This document shows positions 1-10,184 of a stretch of DNA of 64,000 nucleotides, in pieces. Position 1 is the first letter of the stretch. Every line of letters starts with the position of its first letter. Made by a program: the position numbers and the translations under genes. The DNA comes from Photobacterium sp. CCB-ST2H9. GTDB lineage: Bacteria > Pseudomonadota > Gammaproteobacteria > Enterobacterales > Vibrionaceae. Location: positions 2,790,001 to 2,854,000 of the forward strand of contig NZ_CP100425.1 in the NCBI RefSeq assembly GCF_023151555.2. Reading direction: 5' to 3'. The notes beneath the pieces are model-generated. The model saw only the letters and a program-made list of their open reading frames with translations, ran no database searches and was not told where the DNA came from.

Positions 1-1588
1 CCGTAGACACATTACGTAAATCGGTACGGAAGCCCGCCCAAACTGGCGAACCATCTTCGTTTAACTCAAGAGGGCCTGTGTCTTGCCACTTCATCTTGGT
101 GTAGTCGTAGTAGGCGTTGTATGAATCTACAACCTCTTCAGCTGGGCGGAACCCACCCAGCACTTGCTCCATATCCGCTTCGTACGCTTTTTTCGACTCT
201 TTACCACGTTTATCAGATTTAAACTTAGGGGTACCAAATGGTGGGTTGGTACAGATCAAATCAAAGCTGTTTGGCTTTAGCGACGGCGTGGTTAATGAGT
301 TACCGGTGTAGAAGATTTTTGCTTTCGGTGCACCTTGCAGTGCCATATTGACACGTGCAAGCATCACCATACGCGGCGCAGCATCGGCACCCACAAAGCC
401 ATTTTCGAGCAAGTGGTTAAATTGCTGTTCGCGCTCTTGGTCTGATAGACCCGCTACTGTGTGGAGGAAGTTTTTTACGCGGCTTAACGCCACAGAACCA
501 AAGCCGTATGAACCACAGGTAGGATCACAGAAGCGGAACTGACCAGAGGTGATTTGCGCGACGGCATTAGTATCGTTTTCGATGTCATGGAACACCATAT
601 CCAGCATCGCGTCTTTTACTGGCTTTGGTGTTAGGTAAATGCCCAAACCACCTTTAGATTCAAAGTTCGCACGCAGGAAAACATCGAATACACGGCCCAG
701 GAAGTCAGCCGATACATCAGCCAGTGTACCTTGGCGGGTTTCACCGGTTTTCTCATCCGTGAACGGGCCTAAGTCTTGAATCGCTTTTAACAGGGTTTCG
801 TAGTTACGCGGCTTTTCTAAACGTAGGTGAGTTTTCGCATCAAAAATTGGATTCGCTTCACCTGCATCGTTGACGACAACATAGTCTGGGTGCAGTTTGA
901 AATGGTCAAATGCCGCCTGAATAAGCTCAACCGCCGCATCGCCATGTTCTTTTACGTATTGATAGGTGAAGATTTCAGGCAGCTGATAAACTTGACCATT
1001 ATGCTCAAAGCCAAGGTCGCTATCTTTTTTGTGATGAACGCGGAATGACTCTAGGAAAAGAATCTTCGCCACTTCTTCGATAATGTCGTTTTTGTCAGAC
1101 ACCTTATCTTTTACGGTTTGATAAACCTGCTCATGAAAGGCATCAAGATCGTGCATTAGGTTACGGTACACCATTGCAGACCATGCCAAGTTCTGCTCTC
1201 CACTTAAGCGTTCGTAATCACGAATAAGCTCAATACTTGGAATTTCAGGTACCGCTTGGCTAAAGCCTTTAAATTCATAGCTACGCTGGTTGTTCGCATC
1301 GGCCAAACAGATAAACGCTGGCCACTGGCTCTCGTCACCCAGCATGTCGTTTTCACCCAACAGCTCAAATACCAACGCATCTAGTGTTTCTGGCTCTGAG
1401 TAATGCCAGTTGCCCTCTGCAAGGATCAGCAACAATATTTTCGGCGTTTGGTTACCTTCAACAACACCCCATACAAGCTCTGCTTGGTAAGAGTCTTGTG
1501 TTGCCTCTAAAGGTAACGATTCACTGAATTGACGAAACTGTTTGCGAACTGACGTATAAATTGGAGCGAGTTCTGTAGCATTACTCAT
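1..1588 (-). CDS. N6-adenine DNA methyltransferase (HsdM-like), 3' end beyond window
   Basis: I translated this frame by hand from the ATG at 1586-1588; it stays open to base 1, giving 529 residues without a stop. It would methylate adenine in DNA as the modification arm of a restriction-like system. A SAM-binding motif I (DPTCGS) lies near residue 350 and the catalytic motif IV NPPF (NPPFGTP) near residue 446, the order of gamma-class N6 methyltransferases such as HsdM. The N-terminal 200 residues (MSNATELAPIYTSVRK...) do not show the helical HsdM_N pattern I would expect from textbook type I enzymes, so it may be a type I variant or a BREX/DISARM-like enzyme. It lies downstream of the small protein at 1681-2094 and the HsdS-like gene at 2084-3589, all on the minus strand. 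Cut by the window edge. Confidence 0.85.
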   Translation of the reverse strand, partial: MSNATELAPIYTSVRKQFRQFSESLPLEATQDSYQAELVWGVVEGNQTPKILLLILAEGNWHYSEPETLDALVFELLGENDMLGDESQWPAFICLADANNQRSYEFKGFSQAVPEIPSIELIRDYERLSGEQNLAWSAMVYRNLMHDLDAFHEQVYQTVKDKVSDKNDIIEEVAKILFLESFRVHHKKDSDLGFEHNGQVYQLPEIFTYQYVKEHGDAAVELIQAAFDHFKLHPDYVVVNDAGEANPIFDAKTHLRLEKPRNYETLLKAIQDLGPFTDEKTGETRQGTLADVSADFLGRVFDVFLRANFESKGGLGIYLTPKPVKDAMLDMVFHDIENDTNAVAQITSGQFRFCDPTCGSYGFGSVALSRVKNFLHTVAGLSDQEREQQFNHLLENGFVGADAAPRMVMLARVNMALQGAPKAKIFYTGNSLTTPSLKPNSFDLICTNPPFGTPKFKSDKRGKESKKAYEADMEQVLGGFRPAEEVVDSYNAYYDYTKMKWQDTGPLELNEDGSPVWAGFRTDLRNVST

Positions 1589-1680
1589 AATTCTTTTCCT
1601 AGTACATGCCTCTTTTCATTGAGGCTTTTCTGTTGAGCTAAGCTCAAAGGTCAAATTGGTTTACAGCAAGATAGGGTTCA

Positions 1681-2094
1681 CTAAGCGATCTTAATAAGTG
1701 GCCCCATCATGGTTAATTTGGGATGTTCTTGCACCGCGCTTTTCAGCATGCCCTCTGTGGCGACAATGTGGCTCGGTAACTTGCTCAGGGCTAACTTGAC
1801 TGGCAGTGGGCGGTTAAACTCAATGACTAAATCCAGCAAAATATCGCCTAAATTCTGGCTGCTATTATCTGCCTTATCCTTTTCTGTGGCTTGGATAAGG
1901 AAAGCACCCGTATTGGGCTCTTTTTGTACTGTTTTTTGGCAGCTAAGCCATAATGACAACTGGCTTTTTTGCCAGCCTAGCTCTTGCCAAATATGGCTTT
2001 GTTTTGACCAGATATCGTCTAGCGGTTGTGGTTGGCCCACCAGCCCCTCAAGGGTGTGCTGAAGCGCATGACGTAATTCTGAATCAGTTAACAT
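1681..2094 (-). CDS. Small unknown protein between HsdS-like and methyltransferase genes
   Basis: A 137-residue soluble protein with no signal peptide or membrane segment. I do not recognise the family. The start ATG lies inside the 3' end of the HsdS-like gene (11-nt overlap at 2084-2094), which suggests translational coupling and co-function. The C-terminal part, from about residue 95 (LPVKLALSKLPSHIVATEGML), is amphipathic and could be a winged-helix or adaptor domain, but that is only an impression. A 92-nt gap separates its stop from the methyltransferase start. It could be an accessory subunit of the restriction-like complex. The ORF on the opposite strand at 1709-2062 is a shadow. Confidence 0.7.
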   Translation of the reverse strand: MLTDSELRHALQHTLEGLVGQPQPLDDIWSKQSHIWQELGWQKSQLSLWLSCQKTVQKEPNTGAFLIQATEKDKADNSSQNLGDILLDLVIEFNRPLPVKLALSKLPSHIVATEGMLKSAVQEHPKLTMMGPLIKIA

Positions 2095-3589
2095 GGCTCA
2101 CCTCGTCTAAAGTTGGATGAACACTGTTATATACCTGTGCCATCTGCCCTTTTATCTGTTCCATCTCTGTCAATGCTTGGTTTTGCTTTTTCAAAATAGT
2201 GTCCAACTCACTATGCCAGCGGGTCGCTAATTCATTGGTCAGTGGTGGAAATGTCACCTTGGCGAGATCAGAGAGATTGATAAATGCTTGCACGCTGCCA
2301 CTGACTAATTGAGCCAACTGCCACTTAATTAACGGCGTTTCCAACAGCAAGGCATATGCGCCTGCATGCTGCTGAAAAGACAACGTCGCCAAATGCTCAC
2401 TTGCCAATGTTTCTTTGGAAGGCTTTTCGTTTAACCACAATACCTTACTCTCGATTGCAAATGTTGAGAGCAGCACATCATTTTGTTGTACCAAGCGTTT
2501 TTTCACACGAACGAGCTTGCTCGCTTCCTCGTCATTGGCGTCGACCTGGGTGAGGTTATCAGACAAACGAAAGTTCGATTTTATGTCTTTAATTCGTAGT
2601 AATTGATACTGCTCTGGTGGCGTTTGCTCAGCCTTCGGCTCAATCATCGCGAGTTGCGAAAGATACTGACCACCATTGGCAAGCAGTTGATGGCTTACTT
2701 TACTGTGCTCTGAATAACCAAAATCTAAGCGCTCGCTAAGATCCTCAGCTTTAAACCACGCTGTTTTTATTTCACTCTCATTCCACGAGATGGACGCGTT
2801 GTCTAAGAATTCCGTTAGCCACTTAGAGACTTGCTCGCGCAAGTCTCTAAGTGACATTTGGGTAAAATAGAGCCTTTCCAAACAAGAAAAATAGTACTCT
2901 GCAAGGCTGCAAAACTCGCTAGGTGTTGGCGCAAGAGGCATGTTTTTCAACTGTGACAGCCCCACGCGAACCATTTCGTCTTTTCGAATTCTGTTCTCTA
3001 GGTAGTCAACATACAGCGGTTGTTGTAAGCAGTAAGTCAGCCAGAGCGCATCGTAACGGTTTAAGCCTCTAACAATAGCCATATTCGCATCAATCGGATG
3101 CTGTCGATCAAATTCAGAAACATAAGCCGCCGATGCACTGCCCACGCGGCGAACCACCACATCAGAGGGTTTTACACAGGACTCGAATGAAAGGAGCGGC
3201 GTGAGATATTGGCCACGTTCAGGATTCAACCTCATGTCGGCGACATGCCTCATTCTGTAGTAGCGCTCTCCAGACAAAGTGTCTTCTATGTCTTTTGCTA
3301 ACGCCTTTGTCTCTTTATCGACCACCTTTGGTAAGTAGTTGAGTGTTATTGGATCTCGTTTACTGGTATCTAACAGAGAGACATTAGCCATATACCACTC
3401 TGACTCTGGGCTTTCGCTAAAGCGCCACCCATCAACAAACTTCACTTTATAGTCCGTCAAATGTGGCCATTTCTTTTGCTTTGCAAGCACGGGAAGAATT
3501 GCCGCTGTCGACAGATGATAATCAGCCCGCCAATCCACCGCATCTACAAACTCTTCACTCGATATCTTTTTGATAGTTACAGCCTGCAT
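2084..3589 (-). CDS. HsdS-like DNA specificity subunit
   Basis: Type I-like S subunit of about 501 residues, predicted to choose the DNA target for the neighbouring methyltransferase. It has the two-half layout of S proteins: a first target-recognition region to about residue 230, a helical spacer, then a second region starting near LLRIKDIKSN and ending in the typical 'NLSDLAKVTFPPL' plus C-terminal coiled helix (LDTILKKQNQALTEMEQIKGQMAQV). The frame is open to a GTG at 3721, but the first 44 residues of that longer version look like untranslated leader. I prefer the ATG at 3587-3589 (MQAVTIKKIS), preceded by GGGGATGA. Its 3' end overlaps the 137-residue gene. No hsdR is seen. Divergent from the TIGR04141-like gene at 3808. 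Confidence 0.75.
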   Translation of the reverse strand: MQAVTIKKISSEEFVDAVDWRADYHLSTAAILPVLAKQKKWPHLTDYKVKFVDGWRFSESPESEWYMANVSLLDTSKRDPITLNYLPKVVDKETKALAKDIEDTLSGERYYRMRHVADMRLNPERGQYLTPLLSFESCVKPSDVVVRRVGSASAAYVSEFDRQHPIDANMAIVRGLNRYDALWLTYCLQQPLYVDYLENRIRKDEMVRVGLSQLKNMPLAPTPSEFCSLAEYYFSCLERLYFTQMSLRDLREQVSKWLTEFLDNASISWNESEIKTAWFKAEDLSERLDFGYSEHSKVSHQLLANGGQYLSQLAMIEPKAEQTPPEQYQLLRIKDIKSNFRLSDNLTQVDANDEEASKLVRVKKRLVQQNDVLLSTFAIESKVLWLNEKPSKETLASEHLATLSFQQHAGAYALLLETPLIKWQLAQLVSGSVQAFINLSDLAKVTFPPLTNELATRWHSELDTILKKQNQALTEMEQIKGQMAQVYNSVHPTLDEVSHVN

Positions 3590-3741
3590 TTCATCCCCGC
3601 TGCCCATTTCCATGCTTCGTAATCTAGTCCACAACACATCAGAAATCAACAATTGATTCTTGCGAGTGTAAAGCGATGAATGGAAAATAAAATAAAAACA
3701 ACGTTGACAATCCAAAGTCACCTGCTCATTATAAATACAAG

Positions 3742-3761
3742 TGACTCACTATTGCGAGTCA
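3742..3761. promoter_or_regulatory. Inverted repeat in the divergent promoter
   Basis: TGACTC (3742-3747) and GAGTCA (3756-3761) form a perfect 6-bp inverted repeat with an 8-bp spacer. A further AGTCAC at 3716-3721 mirrors GTGACT at 3741-3746. It sits between the divergent HsdS-like and TIGR04141-like genes, about 50 bp upstream of the latter's ATG and next to TTGACA (3704-3709) and TATAAA (3730-3735). The 20-bp spacing of those two boxes is longer than ideal. Candidate operator coordinating both arms of the locus; inference only. Confidence 0.35.
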
Positions 3762-3807
3762 AAAGCGAAAGTTTGAAATTGGAATATTAACTTAAGGAGT
3801 GACATCT

Positions 3808-5463
3808 ATGCCGACAACACCGCTATCGATTTATCTACTGAAAAAAGGAATCAATGCCGACACTTCAGTCCTCAAACTCAACAATGCGAACAGCCATAAG
3901 GTTGAGCTCGAGGGCACAACAAGTGTTATGCACGTTCAAACACCGACCTCCAACCCACCCGCTTTTGCAAAATTGTTCACTGAAAGTAATCAATTAACTG
4001 ACGTTGACTTCGGAACAAACCAATCGACTGGCGCTGTGTTGGAGTTACAGCATGCTGGGCAGACCTTTTTTGTCGCCTTCGGTAAAGGCCACACTATGCT
4101 TGAAAAGGACTATATGGTTCATGACTTTGGATTGAGAACAGCCTTAAACCTGGTGGACACCAAAGACATCCGCGGTGTTGATACCGCTTCAAACAAAACC
4201 AAGCCTCTTAACGCTCGCGTTCAGAGTGGGTTAAGTGCGGAAGTCTCTGATTTTCCAATCGACATCGATGAAGACCTATTGTCTGCCATTGAGGGACTGA
4301 GCAACGATGCTGGCTTCGGCTCAAGAGTAAGTGGGCGTCGCAGAGCCTTAAAAGTGAACTTCAAGGGTAAGCTTGTTGAACTCCCGAAACTGCTAAATAA
4401 AGCCTACAAGAAGTACACCACAGCTCTGCCTAACGAGTTCAAGTGGGTGGAAAACATTCGAGAAGTCACTGACTCGACAATTATCTCAAGTTTGAACTGT
4501 GAGCTTGTGACGCTCCTCCAGAACTACAAGATGAATGGACCATCGCAAAACGATAACGTCTATATGATCGCGCCAGATGTGTATGACTCTGACACCGTAG
4601 TTGGCTTTAGCTATGGCGCCAATAGCAAGCAACGCTCAGATATTTTGAGCCTCCAGCGGTACCTGGACAAAGTCGTGGGTGAAAAGGGGACGCTGGAACT
4701 AGACCACCTTGTGACTGGTTACAAGGTGTTTGCCAAAGATGAAGATCATATTACGCGACATACTTGGACTGGTTACGAATGCTTGTACTGTGAACTTGAG
4801 AAAGACGGTAAACACTATGAGTTACGCGCTGGGTTTTGGTACGAAATAAATGTGGATTTCGTTAAAGAAATCAATGCAGTAATGGAAAACATTGCCACTT
4901 ACGATGTTCCACTTCCAGATTACGACCATGACTCTGAAGGTGCTTATAATAAGTATGTTGCGGCTAACGACGCTAACATTGAGTGCTTGGATACCAAGAA
5001 TATCTATCTTGGTGGCGGACAAAGCCGATTCGAGTTCTGTGACTTGGTCAATAAAAACAACGGCTTTGATAACAAGACTGACCTAATCCATGTGAAACAC
5101 TACACTTCTTCCGCCACTTTGAGCCACCTTTTTAGCCAAGGTGTAGTGTCAGCTGAAATTTTTCGCAGAAGTGAAGAAGCCCGTCAAAAGCTATATTCAG
5201 ACCACCCTGGTGTCATGCCTTTGACAGATCCAGCTGTCGCACCAAACGCTGGTGATTATCGAATCGTATATGCCATCTACGACATTGACGCCTTACCGAC
5301 TAAGCTTCCTTTCTTTTCGAAGGTCAACTTGAAGAATGCTTATTACAGGCTGGATCTGCTGGGCTATAAAGTTGCACTTGCACACATTGATGTGCATCCA
5401 AACAAGAGAGCTCAAACCAAAGCGAAGCAAGCGAAAAATGCCAAATTACCAACAGCGGCTTAA
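3808..5463 (+). CDS. TIGR04141/DUF6119-like protein (sporadic family, probable defence partner)
   Basis: About 551 residues. The opening 'PLSIYLLKKGI', the total length near 550, and the C-terminal half with conserved blocks (KDIYLGGGQSRFEFCDL near residue 400; HVKHYTSSATLSHLFSQG near 425) match what I know of the sporadically distributed TIGR04141 (DUF6119) family. Its function is not established; members tend to occur beside restriction-modification genes in mobile DNA. The late block (C-D-L ... H-V-K-H-Y ... A-T-L-S-H-L-F) resembles a nuclease or phospholipase-like active site but I cannot assign one. Start chosen at ATG 3808 because AAGGAG lies at 3794-3799; the GTG at 3799 would overlap that site. 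Soluble, no signal peptide. Divergent from the HsdS/HsdM-like genes. Confidence 0.7.
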   Translation: MPTTPLSIYLLKKGINADTSVLKLNNANSHKVELEGTTSVMHVQTPTSNPPAFAKLFTESNQLTDVDFGTNQSTGAVLELQHAGQTFFVAFGKGHTMLEKDYMVHDFGLRTALNLVDTKDIRGVDTASNKTKPLNARVQSGLSAEVSDFPIDIDEDLLSAIEGLSNDAGFGSRVSGRRRALKVNFKGKLVELPKLLNKAYKKYTTALPNEFKWVENIREVTDSTIISSLNCELVTLLQNYKMNGPSQNDNVYMIAPDVYDSDTVVGFSYGANSKQRSDILSLQRYLDKVVGEKGTLELDHLVTGYKVFAKDEDHITRHTWTGYECLYCELEKDGKHYELRAGFWYEINVDFVKEINAVMENIATYDVPLPDYDHDSEGAYNKYVAANDANIECLDTKNIYLGGGQSRFEFCDLVNKNNGFDNKTDLIHVKHYTSSATLSHLFSQGVVSAEIFRRSEEARQKLYSDHPGVMPLTDPAVAPNAGDYRIVYAIYDIDALPTKLPFFSKVNLKNAYYRLDLLGYKVALAHIDVHPNKRAQTKAKQAKNAKLPTAA

Positions 5464-5624: not shown

Positions 5625-7883
5625 TTACCCGTTTTCAGTTAGAACCGTATTCACTTTGTACGAGCCCCAATTGAGAATCAACTGTCTGATATTTATACGT
5701 TGCCCCCTTTGAGTATCAACACAGGTATCACTTAAATTAGGCTTGTGATGCTGGGATTTCAGCATTGCACCTACCAAATCAGCTTCATCAAGCTCGACGG
5801 CGAGCATAAACGGTGTATATCCAAGCAAGGCTGTATCATGCTTGGCGTTCATATCTGCACCATGCTCTATCAACAACTTGGCTATTGCCCTGAAGCTGTC
5901 AGCTGTCGAATGCCGGACAATGTTTTCTCTTACATAGTCTTTCGTAGCATTCAAACCCAATCGGAAAACAGGGTCATTCTGTTGTTCCATCATTACCTTT
6001 TTGAGTTGCTCTAGTTCGAAAGGCATTAAACCCGCAGAATGTGCACGCACAGATTGCAGATTCATATCGGAGAATTTCAAACTGTCCCAATGCATCTCGT
6101 GAAGTTTTGGCCGTGTGTGATGAGCAATCATTCCAATAGCCGTGAAAAGAGGCGTCTCACCGATTGTGTCATGCTTTCTATCGACCGTTGCCCCCATTTC
6201 TAACACCTTTTTCACGATATCTAATCGCCCAGTCTGAACCGCGCAGCCCAATGGTGATAGCTTTCGCTTACTGGAGAGCGAATCCAGTATGCTTTTTCTG
6301 TGTGTCTTTTCACTTATCAGTTTAAACAATCCATCATCCATCGAATTGAGCGGTGCCAAGTTAATTTGTATCGCTTGAACTGCCATCAATATTGCAGATT
6401 CATTGCTGCTAGAAAGTTTGTTGACGTCCGCACCAGCCTCTAACAAACGTGCTACCGCGTCTAAATCATCCAGCATTGAGAAGTAAATCAACTGCGGCAT
6501 TTTTTTGACCAAGCCGCCTTGTATACCAACTGAAAAGGATTTGTTTGGCTTTGTGAGATCAAGCACATGAGCAGTTTCATCCACCATCCAAATTCCGTTG
6601 TTTTCATGAGGTTCGGCTGGATATACCGAATTGGGGAAGAAAGACTCTCTAGGAAACATAGCATTGAAAAATTGGCTAAAAGCGGCGATTTCCCACGACT
6701 CGATCTCTTGTACTTTCGCTTTAAACGCATCATTGCTGTGTTCGGGAGGTAAGAGATCCAACTTGAACAGGACGGCCATTCGTCTGAGTCTATTGATGAA
6801 CTTTTTGTCTGGTTTAGCACTACGACATGAAGCGGTTATCGCTTCAGTAATGATCTTTCCCGCATTCTCCCCTTGCCGGTATAAAACAAGTTCAAAGGCT
6901 AACTTGTAACACGATATCGCCAATGGCAACTCTCCCGCGTGCAGGTGGTACCGGGCTTTCATCCAGTGATAGTAATACGTTGTCTCATTATCTTTATCGA
7001 GTCGTTGTTGTTCTGCTTCCAACTGCGTAAGTAGCTCTAGGCAATGCTCTTTGTCATCTGCTTGCTTTGGTTTCCTGAGCCTTAGCAAATCAAAAAGCCC
7101 CAAAGCGAAATTCGTAGTAGAACAATAACGCTCCGTTCCTTCAGTGAGCAGTGCGCCAAGGCTTCTAACCATTTCATTCCAGCAGCCTTCAGCAGAGAGC
7201 TTCGACAATAAGTTCAGACAAGCACCGTCATTTTGAGAGAAGTAATAATCCCAAATCCTTGCGGTTATTAGCCTTGCCTTATATGTCCCCCAGCTATTAC
7301 CGTCTCTCCATTGCTCTCCTATCGACGCAATGCTATCGAGTTCCGGTATATCTCGACCCGATGACCATACTCTTAATCTCTCTTTCTGAACTGGCGTCGC
7401 GTCCTGATAAAATTTCCGCCACTCTACGCCATCACATATCGATGCTATAGCTAAGTCCATCAAAGGTTGTCGCTTTTCAGCAACACAATTCGGCGTTAAC
7501 TTCATTCCATCCAGCATGTCTCGACACAGCTCAGCAATCGCGAATGTCATGAAGTACTTACCTATTACTTCTCTCGCCTTCGATGCCTGAACGCCATCAA
7601 GGGGCATCCCATTAATTAGATCTATATACATGGACTCAACTCTTTCATACTCGCTCAGCATGTGGTCAGCAAAATAGACATTCACGTACTTACTGAGAGG
7701 AACATGGATAAGCTCTTGTTTGAGTGAGGAGAGCTGGTACGGGTTGATTTCCACTTGCTTACAAGCGTCATCTATCTTTTTCCCAGCTAACTTCTTAGTC
7801 CCCAAGCACTTTGCAATCTCTCTCAACAAATGTTGAAGCGTGAAATAAGGTGTAGTATTTGTATCGTTTGTATCGTTGCTCAT
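5625..7883 (-). CDS. Ankyrin-repeat protein with long helical N-terminus
   Basis: 752 residues, soluble. The N-terminal 450 residues are alpha-helical with no family I recognise; an HTH-like opening (LLREIAKCLGTKKLAGKKI, residues 15-35) is possible. The C-terminal part carries ankyrin units: one near 463-500 (DDLDAVARLLEAGADVNKL), one near 545-590 (SPLGCAVQTGRLDIVKKVL, then GETPLFTAI), one near 670-715 (AKLLIEHGADMNAKHD, then GYTPFMLAVELDEADLVGAML). Ankyrin arrays bind proteins, so a scaffold, inhibitor or effector role is likely. It overlaps the HicA-like gene by 4 nt (ATGA at 7880-7883), so the two are translationally coupled. Function unknown; the pairing with a solo HicA is discussed in the findings. 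Confidence 0.8.
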   Translation of the reverse strand: MSNDTNDTNTTPYFTLQHLLREIAKCLGTKKLAGKKIDDACKQVEINPYQLSSLKQELIHVPLSKYVNVYFADHMLSEYERVESMYIDLINGMPLDGVQASKAREVIGKYFMTFAIAELCRDMLDGMKLTPNCVAEKRQPLMDLAIASICDGVEWRKFYQDATPVQKERLRVWSSGRDIPELDSIASIGEQWRDGNSWGTYKARLITARIWDYYFSQNDGACLNLLSKLSAEGCWNEMVRSLGALLTEGTERYCSTTNFALGLFDLLRLRKPKQADDKEHCLELLTQLEAEQQRLDKDNETTYYYHWMKARYHLHAGELPLAISCYKLAFELVLYRQGENAGKIITEAITASCRSAKPDKKFINRLRRMAVLFKLDLLPPEHSNDAFKAKVQEIESWEIAAFSQFFNAMFPRESFFPNSVYPAEPHENNGIWMVDETAHVLDLTKPNKSFSVGIQGGLVKKMPQLIYFSMLDDLDAVARLLEAGADVNKLSSSNESAILMAVQAIQINLAPLNSMDDGLFKLISEKTHRKSILDSLSSKRKLSPLGCAVQTGRLDIVKKVLEMGATVDRKHDTIGETPLFTAIGMIAHHTRPKLHEMHWDSLKFSDMNLQSVRAHSAGLMPFELEQLKKVMMEQQNDPVFRLGLNATKDYVRENIVRHSTADSFRAIAKLLIEHGADMNAKHDTALLGYTPFMLAVELDEADLVGAMLKSQHHKPNLSDTCVDTQRGQRINIRQLILNWGSYKVNTVLTENG

Positions 7884-8372: not shown

Positions 8373-8420
8373 CAGATATATGTCATGGCAGTGAACACAT
8401 CTGTTTCACTGCTTAAGGAG
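8373..8420 (+). promoter_or_regulatory. Conserved leader, copy 1: 14-bp motif + hairpin + strong ribosome site
   Basis: CAGATATATGTCAT at 8373-8386, then an 8-bp perfect stem (GCAGTGAA 8388-8395 with TTCACTGC 8405-8412, 9-nt loop), then TTAAGGAG at 8413-8420, then the DUF2787 start at 8427. The same 14-bp motif and TTAAGGAG recur upstream of radC at 9668-9712. No clear sigma70 -35 box lies at the right distance, so an activator-dependent promoter or a leader-RNA element are both possible. Confidence 0.55.
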
Positions 8421-8426
8421 TTGTTT

Positions 8427-8855
8427 ATGTTGGCTTCTGATTATGACGGTCTTGAGCTACCTCAATCACTGTGTGCTTTGCTTGAGGAGACCCTCTCTCG
8501 GTACGAGATCCCAGACGATACCCGCCAGGCTGCACTGAATTGCCGCGATACCAAGTTCTACAAAACAAGGAAGGGATTGCACCCGGTCGAATTCAAGTTC
8601 AAGCGGGAAGAAGCAAAGGCGCCCTGGGTGCTGGCCTTTGTTGCGAGTTTCTCCTATCGTGACGAAAGCGATGAGTCGCTCGATGTAGAGCTTTACTTTC
8701 ATCTTGCCAATCGTTGGTGCTTTCAACCTGACGCTGGCGTCGCCGACCTCAATCACCCCACGGTTTTAGATTTGTTTTACACCTGGTGCGCTGCATTTGA
8801 ACGGCACGTCCACCAGCAAGCGTTTGACGATATTCAACTGACGCTGTTGCGTTAA
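8427..8855 (+). CDS. DUF2787 family protein (first paralogue)
   Basis: 142 residues from the ATG at 8427, chosen because AAGGAG sits 7 bases upstream; the frame is open from 8385 but that would place the start inside the conserved 14-bp leader motif. The pattern 'LHPVEFKFKRE...WVLAFVASFSYRD...LDVELYF' matches, more loosely, the 'FHPVEI...ITDFAYVG...LDFDF' core of its neighbour, so it is a diverged DUF2787. The family is common on Vibrionaceae islands next to AlpA and RadC genes; its function is unknown. Soluble, acidic. Followed after 46 nt by the second paralogue, probably one transcript. Confidence 0.65.
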   Translation: MLASDYDGLELPQSLCALLEETLSRYEIPDDTRQAALNCRDTKFYKTRKGLHPVEFKFKREEAKAPWVLAFVASFSYRDESDESLDVELYFHLANRWCFQPDAGVADLNHPTVLDLFYTWCAAFERHVHQQAFDDIQLTLLR

Positions 8856-8901: not shown

Positions 8902-9345
8902 ATGTCTGACGTTACCTTTGAACCGTCGAGCTTACCGGTATCCAACAAGCTTCACGCACTGCTGGCGTTGACGCTGCTGGAGAAGCAAAAGCAAGACGCT
9001 GGCCTTTGCAATGGCCGGTACTTGGTCTTCAACTTTCGTGAAAGCAGTTATAGCGCTGAAACTGGTGGCTTTCATCCCGTTGAAATCGGCATTTGCAAAG
9101 CTGATAGCGGGACCTGGAATATCGAATACATCACCGACTTTGCTTACGTGGGAAACTATTACCCGGAGCTTGAACGGTGCATCGATTTCGACTTTCGCGT
9201 GCAGTCGTTCTTTGCTCAGTACTGTGGCTGGCAATCCATCAAAGGCAATGCTTCTGCTGTTGAGCTCTATCAGCTTTGGGAGGGGAATTTCCTGAGCTAT
9301 GCGGAGATGGAGGTATATGACGAGATGAGCATTGCTGTTCAATAG
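8902..9345 (+). CDS. DUF2787 family protein (second paralogue)
   Basis: 147 residues. It has the core I associate with DUF2787 (PF10980): FNFRESSYSAETGGFHPVEI near residues 42-61 and YITDFAYVGNYYPELERCIDFDF near 75-97. A strong TAGGAGG precedes the ATG at 8902. Role unknown; genes of this family travel in integrative elements with RadC-like and AlpA-like genes. The minus-strand ORF at 8932-9405 is its shadow. Likely co-transcribed with the first paralogue. Confidence 0.8.
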   Translation: MSDVTFEPSSLPVSNKLHALLALTLLEKQKQDAGLCNGRYLVFNFRESSYSAETGGFHPVEIGICKADSGTWNIEYITDFAYVGNYYPELERCIDFDFRVQSFFAQYCGWQSIKGNASAVELYQLWEGNFLSYAEMEVYDEMSIAVQ

Positions 9346-9667: not shown

Positions 9668-9712
9668 CAGATATATGTCATCTCCCGGATAGACCGGTTT
9701 ATTGTTAAGGAG
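9668..9712 (+). promoter_or_regulatory. Conserved leader, copy 2: 14-bp motif + TTAAGGAG
   Basis: CAGATATATGTCAT at 9668-9681 is identical to 8373-8386; TTAAGGAG at 9705-9712 repeats the downstream element. The middle differs and holds only a 4-bp CCGG/CCGG stem (9685-9688 with 9694-9697). Motif-to-ribosome-site distance is 23 nt here and 26 nt in copy 1. Confidence 0.55.
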
Positions 9713-9719
9713 GTGTTCT

Positions 9720-10184
9720 GTGTCTATTCGTTATCCTAAGCGCTGCTTTACGTCTGAAGACCAAGTGTTGGAGGCGGCAGCCGACATCATCGCGACACGG
9801 TTTGTTCGTGGTGATGCGTTTTGTAACCCGGACCACACCATGCAGTTTCTCAGTTGCAAGTTAGGTGGCTTTGATCGGGAAGTTTTCGCCGTGATGCTGC
9901 TCGATAGCCAGCACCGTTTGATTAAGTTCGACAGTCTGTTCTTCGGCACCATCGACAGTGCGACTGTCAATGCACGCGAAGTGGTGAAGTCCGCATTAAC
10001 CAGCAATGCAGCAGCGGTCATCTTGGCCCACAATCATCCTTCTGGTGATGCTGAACCGTCGAACGCAGACATCAGGCTAACCAGGACCATTTGTGATGCG
10101 CTTGCTTTGATTGAAGTAAGGGTTTTGGATCATATCGTGGTGGGTAAGTCCTGCGTGTCATTTGCACAACGCGGGCTGATTTAG
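9720..10184 (+). CDS. RadC-like JAB domain protein
   Basis: 154 residues starting at GTG 9720, 7 bases after AAGGAGG. It is the C-terminal JAB/MPN part of RadC, with the metal-site motif 'AHNHPSGDAEPSNADIRLT' near residues 100-118 and the upstream 'E' loop (FDREVFAVMLLDSQHRLI). Full-length chromosomal RadC is about 220 residues with an HhH domain, missing here; short forms like this are typical mobile-element genes next to DUF2787 and AlpA. The role is not settled: a zinc-dependent hydrolase fold with proposed DNA roles. Its stop codon is embedded in the ribosome site of the next gene. Confidence 0.85.
   Translation: MSIRYPKRCFTSEDQVLEAAADIIATRFVRGDAFCNPDHTMQFLSCKLGGFDREVFAVMLLDSQHRLIKFDSLFFGTIDSATVNAREVVKSALTSNAAAVILAHNHPSGDAEPSNADIRLTRTICDALALIEVRVLDHIVVGKSCVSFAQRGLI

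Follow-up and report, generated by a model that had tools for sequence, protein, structure and literature searches.

What role does a gene of the TIGR04141/DUF6119 family play at the left end of a 64,000-nucleotide stretch of the Photobacterium sp. CCB-ST2H9 genome, where it diverges from genes for an N6-adenine DNA methyltransferase and an HsdS-like protein? This stretch (the window) covers bases 2790001-2854000 of contig 1 in a 5.17 Mb genome of three contigs. The original prediction read the genes at its left end as a modification-guided defence system in which no HsdR or helicase was visible and the TIGR04141 protein was the only candidate effector, of unknown type. We find that these genes are the cut end of a conserved operon. 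The operon is probably a methylation-guided, HerA-driven anti-phage DNA-restriction machine with TIGR04141 as an optional plug-in nuclease, a reading that we hold with reasonable though limited confidence. The content, order and spread of the operon, the exchange of a second HsdS, a modelled NurA fold and intact motifs were all observed, and from these sequence features we infer the anti-phage function. The window features used below are as follows.

2..1588, minus strand: N6-adenine DNA methyltransferase, 5' part of the gene (N6_Mtase, 54.3 bits; cut-off 20.4)
1681..2094, minus strand: U137, 137-amino-acid (aa) conserved core protein (match in 38 of 69 loci)
2084..3721, minus strand: S545, first HsdS-like gene (PADLOC Specificity_I, 5.8e-11)
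3661..3676, plus strand: operator-like element, copy 1 (TGCGAGTGTAAAGCGA); a paired copy is also present in L008 and L009
3742..3761, no strand: imperfect palindrome TGACTC-N8-GAGTCA, an inverted repeat overlapping element copy 2
3753..3768, plus strand: operator-like element, copy 2 (TGCGAGTCAAAAGCGA), 92 bp from copy 1
3808..5463, plus strand: TIGR04141/DUF6119 gene, predicted optional accessory effector (551 aa from ATG; open reading frame (ORF) from GTG 3799)
4915..5391, plus strand: codons of its C-terminal domain, residues 370-528, modelled as PD-(D/E)XK-like

The methyltransferase ORF crosses the left window edge and continues to L001:17465, L001 being the 18 kb fetched immediately left of the window; the complete protein has 707 aa. 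Beyond it, on the same strand, follow a second HsdS (496 aa; Methylase_S 73.4 bits, PADLOC Specificity_I 418 bits), a 445-aa protein, a 1469-aa ATPase-like protein, and proteins of 275 and 377 aa. Next come HerA (561 aa), which carries the DUF87 domain expected of HerA-NurA systems (156.8 bits; cut-off 23.2), a 204-aa protein, a Ser/Thr kinase (515 aa, 115.6 bits), McrB (898 aa) and McrC (432 aa, 315.1 bits), all in the same orientation. The 1469-aa protein contains the sequence GEWGRGKS and, further on, LDE. It matches no Pfam family above the cut-off and no PADLOC family; its lone Pfam match, Occludin_ELL, was under the cut-off and was rejected. Among the 60 matches listed for its profile against the PDB, only influenza haemagglutinin HA2 was found (E at least 0.0009), a chance match of coiled coils. 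The kinase, P-loop, HerA and methyltransferase motifs are all intact. A tyrosine integrase (domain at 2771329-2771823), next to the tmRNA gene ssrA, lies beyond McrC; therefore, the locus lies at one end of an island. For the right end of the island, a second attachment site was not found: genome-wide, the 20-base end of ssrA is present a single time, and a shorter end pattern is absent from the window.

These genes change the answer to the opening question. The absence of HsdR and helicase holds for the stretch originally read; it does not hold for the locus, where HerA lies to the left, and the missing helicase and nuclease are an artefact because the window edge cuts the operon. An hsdR immediately left of base 1, named beforehand as the finding that would overturn the original prediction, was looked for in the 18 kb and not found. 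The genome has two HSDR_N matches, C1:95429 and C1:1402086, each more than 1.3 Mb from the locus. The first (G000:C1:95429-96082) lies 2.7 Mb off in a 1100-aa frame, with 150 bits, and probably belongs to a separate type I restriction-modification (RM) system. A methyltransferase-HsdS pair with TIGR04141 as its only effector would suit the divergent layout around a shared operator region, and in 3 of 12 other genomes TIGR04141 does adjoin a type I RM set or lie within it. However, that model is already contradicted by the left-flank genes: the methyltransferase and HsdS are part of an operon that also encodes HerA, a kinase, the large ATPase and a NurA-fold protein, and most copies of the operon work, if at all, without TIGR04141. 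We give it very little credence. Modification-guided defence stands as the best reading, but TIGR04141 loses its place as sole effector to a longer list: HerA, the NurA-fold protein, the putative 204-aa nuclease, the large ATPase-like protein, the kinase and the adjoining McrBC.

The genes that the original prediction named in the window were all confirmed by ORFs and hidden Markov model scores. The methyltransferase carries the motifs DPTCG and NPPF, and its window part, without the last 178 residues, scores 728 bits against PADLOC MTase_I. S545 has no Pfam match, and it aligns with the family of the second HsdS at an hhalign probability of 99.2%. Its close homologues have 509-518 aa; therefore, the GTG at 3721 is doubted, and the true start is probably one of the in-frame ATGs at 3613, 3607 or 3589. 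The ORF of U137 shares 11 bp with that of S545. Its sole Pfam hint is DUF7343 (E 0.21, under the cut-off), and it is possibly a winged-helix protein. The divergent protein matches the TIGR04141 model with 420.3 bits (cut-off 35) over positions 1-516 of 516, and the DUF6119 model with 403.5 bits (cut-off 27) over positions 1-523 of 524.

The spread of the operon was followed through the 1469-aa protein, for which 464 homologues were found among the candidates scored. None of the 120 listed carries a Pfam domain, and those with names are called hypothetical or uncharacterized. The ATPase alignment took in 24 of these 120, and a 25-member profile recovered 69 loci in genome contigs. They span Gamma-, Beta- and Alphaproteobacteria, Desulfobacteraceae and other Deltaproteobacteria, Planctomycetes, Acidobacteria, Verrucomicrobia, Cyanobacteria, a Fibrobacter metagenome-assembled genome (MAG) and Clostridia, which are about eight phyla by our own grouping of the record titles, several of the loci being from MAGs. 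At a blastp E of 1e-4, a threshold that scores diverged versions (c2, c3, c4 and c5) as absent, the 1469-aa protein is present in 69 loci, the NurA-like protein in 64, HerA in 63, the 204-aa protein in 62, the kinase and the second HsdS in 61 each, the methyltransferase in 60, and the 445- and 275-aa proteins in 54 each. The 137-aa protein (38), the first HsdS (25), McrB (6), McrC (4) and TIGR04141 (4, one a 65-aa fragment) are less frequent. Cuts at contig ends were counted as gene loss, and 7 of the 69 loci have four or fewer core genes; several missing core genes are explained by contig ends or by diverged versions. In Clostridia, hhalign assigns c4 to the 445-aa family (98.0% probability), c5 to the 275-aa family (96.9%) and c2 to the 137-aa family (99.8%), and c3 is HsdS-like. 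The core genes are co-stranded in all 69 loci and keep their order in 66; among loci with at least six core genes the order is kept in 59 of 62, and over-long ORF starts account for two of the three loci that deviate. The complete ten-gene core was found in 37 loci.

Further genes accompany the operon in some lineages; Pfam was run on 20 chosen proteins across the 69 loci plus one member of a family called c8. A family of about 350 aa, c1 (L066:8925-9980 and 15 more loci), separates the 445-aa gene from that of the large ATPase. The 16 loci include Clostridia and Alphaproteobacteria, and the member scanned has no Pfam and no PADLOC match; possibly c1 belongs to the core and Gammaproteobacteria have lost it. 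Directly after the kinase, a protein of 1371-1390 aa is found in Vibrio (L009:20221-24335) and Motilimonas (L012:20075-24245), the Vibrio one with a NO VEIN C-terminal domain. The same position is taken by a Sacsin/HATPase protein in V. hannami.

The second HsdS behaves differently from the genes around it. In 16 hand-picked pairs of close relatives, the methyltransferases are 81-99% and the HerA proteins 91-100% identical, whereas the second HsdS is only 30-41% identical in 15 pairs and 71% identical in the remaining one. Between the window genome and Vibrio rotiferianus, for example, identity is 97% for the methyltransferase, 98% for HerA, 91% for the ATPase and 36% for the second HsdS. The first HsdS-like protein is not swapped, with identities of 83, 71, 72, 95 and 65% in five pairs and of 41 and 43% against more distant Photobacterium. 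We read the exchange of the second HsdS as target-recognition swapping of the type I kind. It therefore supports self-marking by the methyltransferase and the second HsdS, whose methylation is predicted.

Copies in E. coli were reached by querying with the operon of Ewingella. This 15.6 kb copy has matches in 287 of the 5426 complete E. coli genomes, in 207 of which it is covered to at least 80%. In the soil isolate VCSW8 the operon (L118:9001-24573) lies between nanS and a tRNA-Leu gene with a frameshifted integrase, and McrBC and a phosphorothioate-dependent restriction gene come before it. It lacks the first HsdS and TIGR04141, and 6 of its 10 genes are annotated "hypothetical protein" in the record. 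An integrase/tRNA-Leu island houses the operon in both E. coli genomes examined. The other, N96 (L119), has a decayed copy with a split second HsdS and a frameshifted 445-aa gene. With 8.5 kb of our own genome as the query, the E. coli collection gave no match. The plasmids gave none to the large ATPase protein, to the Ewingella ATPase gene or to 12.5 kb of our own genome.

Cutting could be supplied by the operon itself. The 377-aa protein beside HerA has a NurA fold in a good model. Our own protein has no Pfam match at E up to 0.01 and so lacks the PF09376 signature; of 12 operon-bearing genomes, three (cyanobacteria) have matches above the cut-off, with the full-length ones in frames of 400-461 aa, and one has a match below it. 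Among the 120 homologues listed in UniRef, four are named NurA domain-containing. By hhalign, none of the NurA sequences compared could be aligned with the 377-aa family, a weak test in that two of the four were the wrong ORF. The motif I Asp, placed by eye at position 59, is found in none of 63 sequences, which have Ser, Ala, Thr, Val or Gly instead. The 204-aa protein has an invariant D-ExE-K pattern, with D86, E102, E104 and K119, and is a putative nuclease. The residue counts of both families cover proteins of 0.75 to 1.35 times the length of our own. Profile searches of the PDB gave nothing usable for the 377-aa, 204-aa and TIGR04141 families.

The same parts could instead form a methylation-tied module of DNA repair or chromosome maintenance that processes ends with HerA and NurA. 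Such complexes are known from end resection, as described in the available text of two papers (PMC12977600, PMC9960219), and a NurA fold does adjoin HerA here. However, the operon is sporadic, as its share of E. coli genomes indicates, and it sits in islands with an integrase at tRNA-Leu (the two E. coli genomes) or at ssrA. Its HsdS is exchanged among close relatives, and its companions are genes for McrBC, a phosphorothioate-dependent restriction enzyme, YhcG, Fic and patatin. The apparent loss of the presumed catalytic Asp speaks against resection as well. A repair role is thus improbable in our judgement, and a restriction machine is the preferred reading of the operon.

The place of TIGR04141 in this machine was judged from its occurrence. 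Among 53 loci in which the slot upstream of the operon is visible, full copies were found in three, those of Shewanella (L008), V. rotiferianus (L009) and another Photobacterium (L010), while V. hannami (L031) has a fragment. TIGR04141 is therefore optional to the operon. Seven TIGR04141 homologues and operon proteins are on contigs of identical size (56694, 20678, 18967, 28130, 15894, 21971 and 28436), so that each pair presumably shares a contig; in one of these pairs, the locus tags ACJAS1_002902 and ACJAS1_002908 are six apart, which is the expected spacing. In relatives, c8 proteins, which reach about 900 aa, are encoded in the divergent slot at 201-209 bp from the first HsdS. The one c8 protein scanned, that of L022, matches PDDEXK_1 with 50.6 bits, and its cluster also includes those of L011, L012 and L023; a PD-(D/E)XK-type slot protein distinct from TIGR04141 is found in Legionella, Marinobacter and Motilimonas. 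Kinship of TIGR04141 with c8 was rejected by hhalign. A DUF2130, a patatin and a metallo-beta-lactamase-fold gene each occupy the slot in a single locus. In loci without the first HsdS, the position directly upstream is taken by McrBC (four loci) or by a YhcG nuclease (L020). TIGR04141 is thus seen in a slot of exchanged genes, several of them predicted nucleases. A plug-in nuclease is harder to reconcile with the slot genes that have no nuclease domain, namely WYL (L014), HTH (L015), DUF3631 (L027) and DNA polymerase Y (L057), and with those of L034, L035 and L040, which match no family.

The intergenic region bears on the same point. The operator-like repeat of the original prediction is present, as a direct pair (3661-3676/3753-3768) and as the inverted repeat at 3742-3761. 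The direct pair TGCGAGTNNAAAGCGA, with a spacing of 92 bp, is the better operator-like element. It recurs in Shewanella L008 (92 bp) and V. rotiferianus L009 (91 bp), which match by construction because the pattern was derived from these two and our own sequence. In a search of 117 loci, five match, three of them from our own genome, and the Photobacterium copy L010 lacks the element. With one mismatch allowed, TGCGAGTNNAAAGCGA occurs genome-wide at these two sites only; the reversed control matches four times, so the evidence is in the pairing and position and not in the count. A sigma-70-like site at 3704-3732 is at chance level (1 found, 0.9 expected). Sites of the RptR repressor are TAGCTA repeats in the available text of PMC12255303; they are unlike the element, and an RptR-type site was rejected.

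TIGR04141 might also be a mere passenger of defence islands, functionally unrelated to the adjoining operon. Its scarcity among the 53 loci and its unrelated neighbours in L097, L101 and L102 are consistent with this. The family is rare, with 11 of 397 phylum genomes and 5 of 60 relatives (our own counted in both, one of the five partial). Twelve other neighbourhoods were compared, from 10 of the 11 phylum genomes (our own excluded) and two relatives, with the partial match G049 left out. The predicted linkage of TIGR04141 with M and S genes was borne out in three of them (L099, L100 and L103), which have hsdR close by too, and failed in the other nine; M and S were called with our own profiles (M 19-27 bits) and hsdR with Pfam. 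Against a passenger, the divergence of TIGR04141 tracks that of its neighbours over four genomes (identities of 87/79/48% for TIGR04141, 83/71/41% for S545 and 80/72/43% for U137). The paired intergenic element is kept in three genomes, seven pairs are on equal-size contigs, and other nucleases fill the slot in some relatives. We consider an unrelated passenger rather unlikely, and an accessory effector of the operon the better account.

The prediction that this effector cuts DNA concerns its C-terminal domain. The original prediction had left the effector without a type; modelling of the domain now suggests a PD-(D/E)XK-like fold, at a borderline score. Foldseek gave no coherent top match for TIGR04141, and a strict D...(D/E)-x-K catalytic motif was not found, D412...H428-x-K430 being present instead. 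The family has at least 1307 members, and its alignment took in 45 of the 120 listed. A regulator that binds DNA or forms rings, with an RdgC-like N-terminal domain, or another abortive toxin would be the alternative. On the other hand, 19 of the first 21 VIA rows, which cover residues 279-543, are what we take to be PD-(D/E)XK-type folds, and E377, D412, H428, K430 and Q444 are invariant in 58 of 58 TIGR04141 sequences. A role other than that of a nuclease is therefore unlikely, though it deserves serious attention, and we continue with the nuclease. No function of TIGR04141 was found in the available portion of the open literature, where the name TIGR04141 is absent and DUF6119 appears solely in relation to wheat MADS-box genes.

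The proposed machine would work as follows. The methyltransferase and the swapped second HsdS would mark host DNA, with the target set by the second HsdS. The large ATPase, the first HsdS and the 137-, 445- and 275-aa proteins may sense, or load on, unmarked incoming DNA, which HerA and its NurA-fold partner would thread. The threaded DNA would be cut by the 204-aa protein, through D-ExE-K, or by the NurA-fold partner, and the kinase may gate the response. TIGR04141, divergent from the shared operator region, could cut DNA as a backup effector, a part that other predicted nucleases in the slot may play in some relatives. A wider reading, which we put a little short of even, is that the operon represents an unnamed class of modification-guided immunity, present in about eight phyla and, within E. 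coli, in 5% of complete genomes. It would combine a methyltransferase/large-ATPase/HerA/NurA-fold/kinase machine of ten to eleven genes with a swappable HsdS and interchangeable plug-in effectors, and TIGR04141 would found a new PD-HxK nuclease family, which accompanies type I RM systems as well. If this is true, a large defence machine has been overlooked in E. coli, with a methyltransferase and HsdS that resemble type I RM. Methylation self-marking, HerA-NurA-type DNA threading and a kinase would be joined in one operon, and TIGR04141/DUF6119 would gain a first testable activity.

On the other side of TIGR04141, and convergent with it, a 752-aa ankyrin-repeat protein is encoded at 5625-7883 (minus strand). 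It has a weak PADLOC match to PDC-M72A (1.9e-9), best in the repeat part. Two adjacent small ORFs of 156 and 147 aa follow at 8385-8855 and 8902-9345 (plus strand). Neither has a convincing PADLOC match; the second matches HEC-01B with an E of 0.044. A RadC-like JAB-domain protein (144 bits) is encoded at 9702-10184 (plus strand); genes of this kind often mark mobile islands.

A name for the operon was not found in PADLOC 2023, NCBIfam or the open literature (without bioRxiv and most subscription journals), and it was compared with known systems. Its HerA and NurA-fold proteins recall HerA-NurA and TdpAB, from which it differs in having N6-methylation genes, with no phosphorothioation genes seen, in the apparent lack of the motif I Asp, and in eight or more extra genes. 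As far as the available text of PMC12839542 goes, the operon is like BREX, BR and BRC in combining a large ATPase and an N6-methyltransferase in a modification-based machine, and it shares HerA with BRC, which is defined there by HerA with PglZ, DUF6079 and DUF4007. However, it has no Pfam match to PglZ, BrxC/DUF6079, DUF499, DUF4007 or SF2 helicase. Membership in BREX and BRC was rejected because no defining Pfam match was found among 16 locus proteins, 11 of them from the operon (E up to 1 or 0.01). The HerA/FtsK capture systems also have a HerA-type translocase, a large ATPase and candidate nucleases; in the text available from PMC10853773 they include Orc/Cdc6 with an inserted inactive REase, D5 helicase or DndH, and none is described there with an N6-methyltransferase, HsdS, NurA fold and kinase together. 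Type I RM is resembled by the hsdM- and hsdS-like genes and by the exchange of HsdS among close relatives. The operon differs from it in having two HsdS-like genes, no hsdR in the left 18 kb, and HerA in place of an SF2 motor; membership was rejected because 10 scanned L001 proteins gave no HSDR_N, ResIII or SWI2_SNF2 match.

The methylation-associated defense system (MADS), reportedly described by Maestri et al. in 2024 as mad1-8, is another relative to consider. The operon has a mad2-like N6-methyltransferase, a mad5-like HsdS, a mad6-like Ser/Thr kinase and a HerA-type ATPase like the C-terminus of mad8. However, its proteins are far under the NCBIfam equivalog cut-offs, with 122.5 of 720 bits for MAD2 (whole methyltransferase), 75.6 of 400 for MAD5 (second HsdS) and 111.8 of 460 for MAD6 (kinase). 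None of mad1, mad3, mad4 and mad7 was among the PADLOC matches listed for the 11 operon proteins and six neighbours, the lists for the methyltransferase (without its last 178 residues), the kinase and HsdS covering up to 25 families. The MADS locus used for comparison, L109/L110, was represented by single sequences. The 1469-, 445-, 377-, 275-, 204- and 137-aa families reach at most 50% probability to six of its proteins, and hhalign found nothing between the mad7 of L109 and the operon families. This locus has two tandem mad2-like methyltransferases, followed by a TIR/short-pAgo-type pair. In our own genome, a second kinase-like frame of 675 aa (G000:C2:84379-85071) has a weak match to the MADS kinase (53.1 and 48.1 bits). 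Membership in MADS was rejected because the defining parts fail, and only the methyltransferase, HsdS, kinase and HerA-class domains are common to the operon and L109/L110. The partial match to the MADS model, 122.5 of 720 bits, nevertheless makes common descent of the two methyltransferases plausible.

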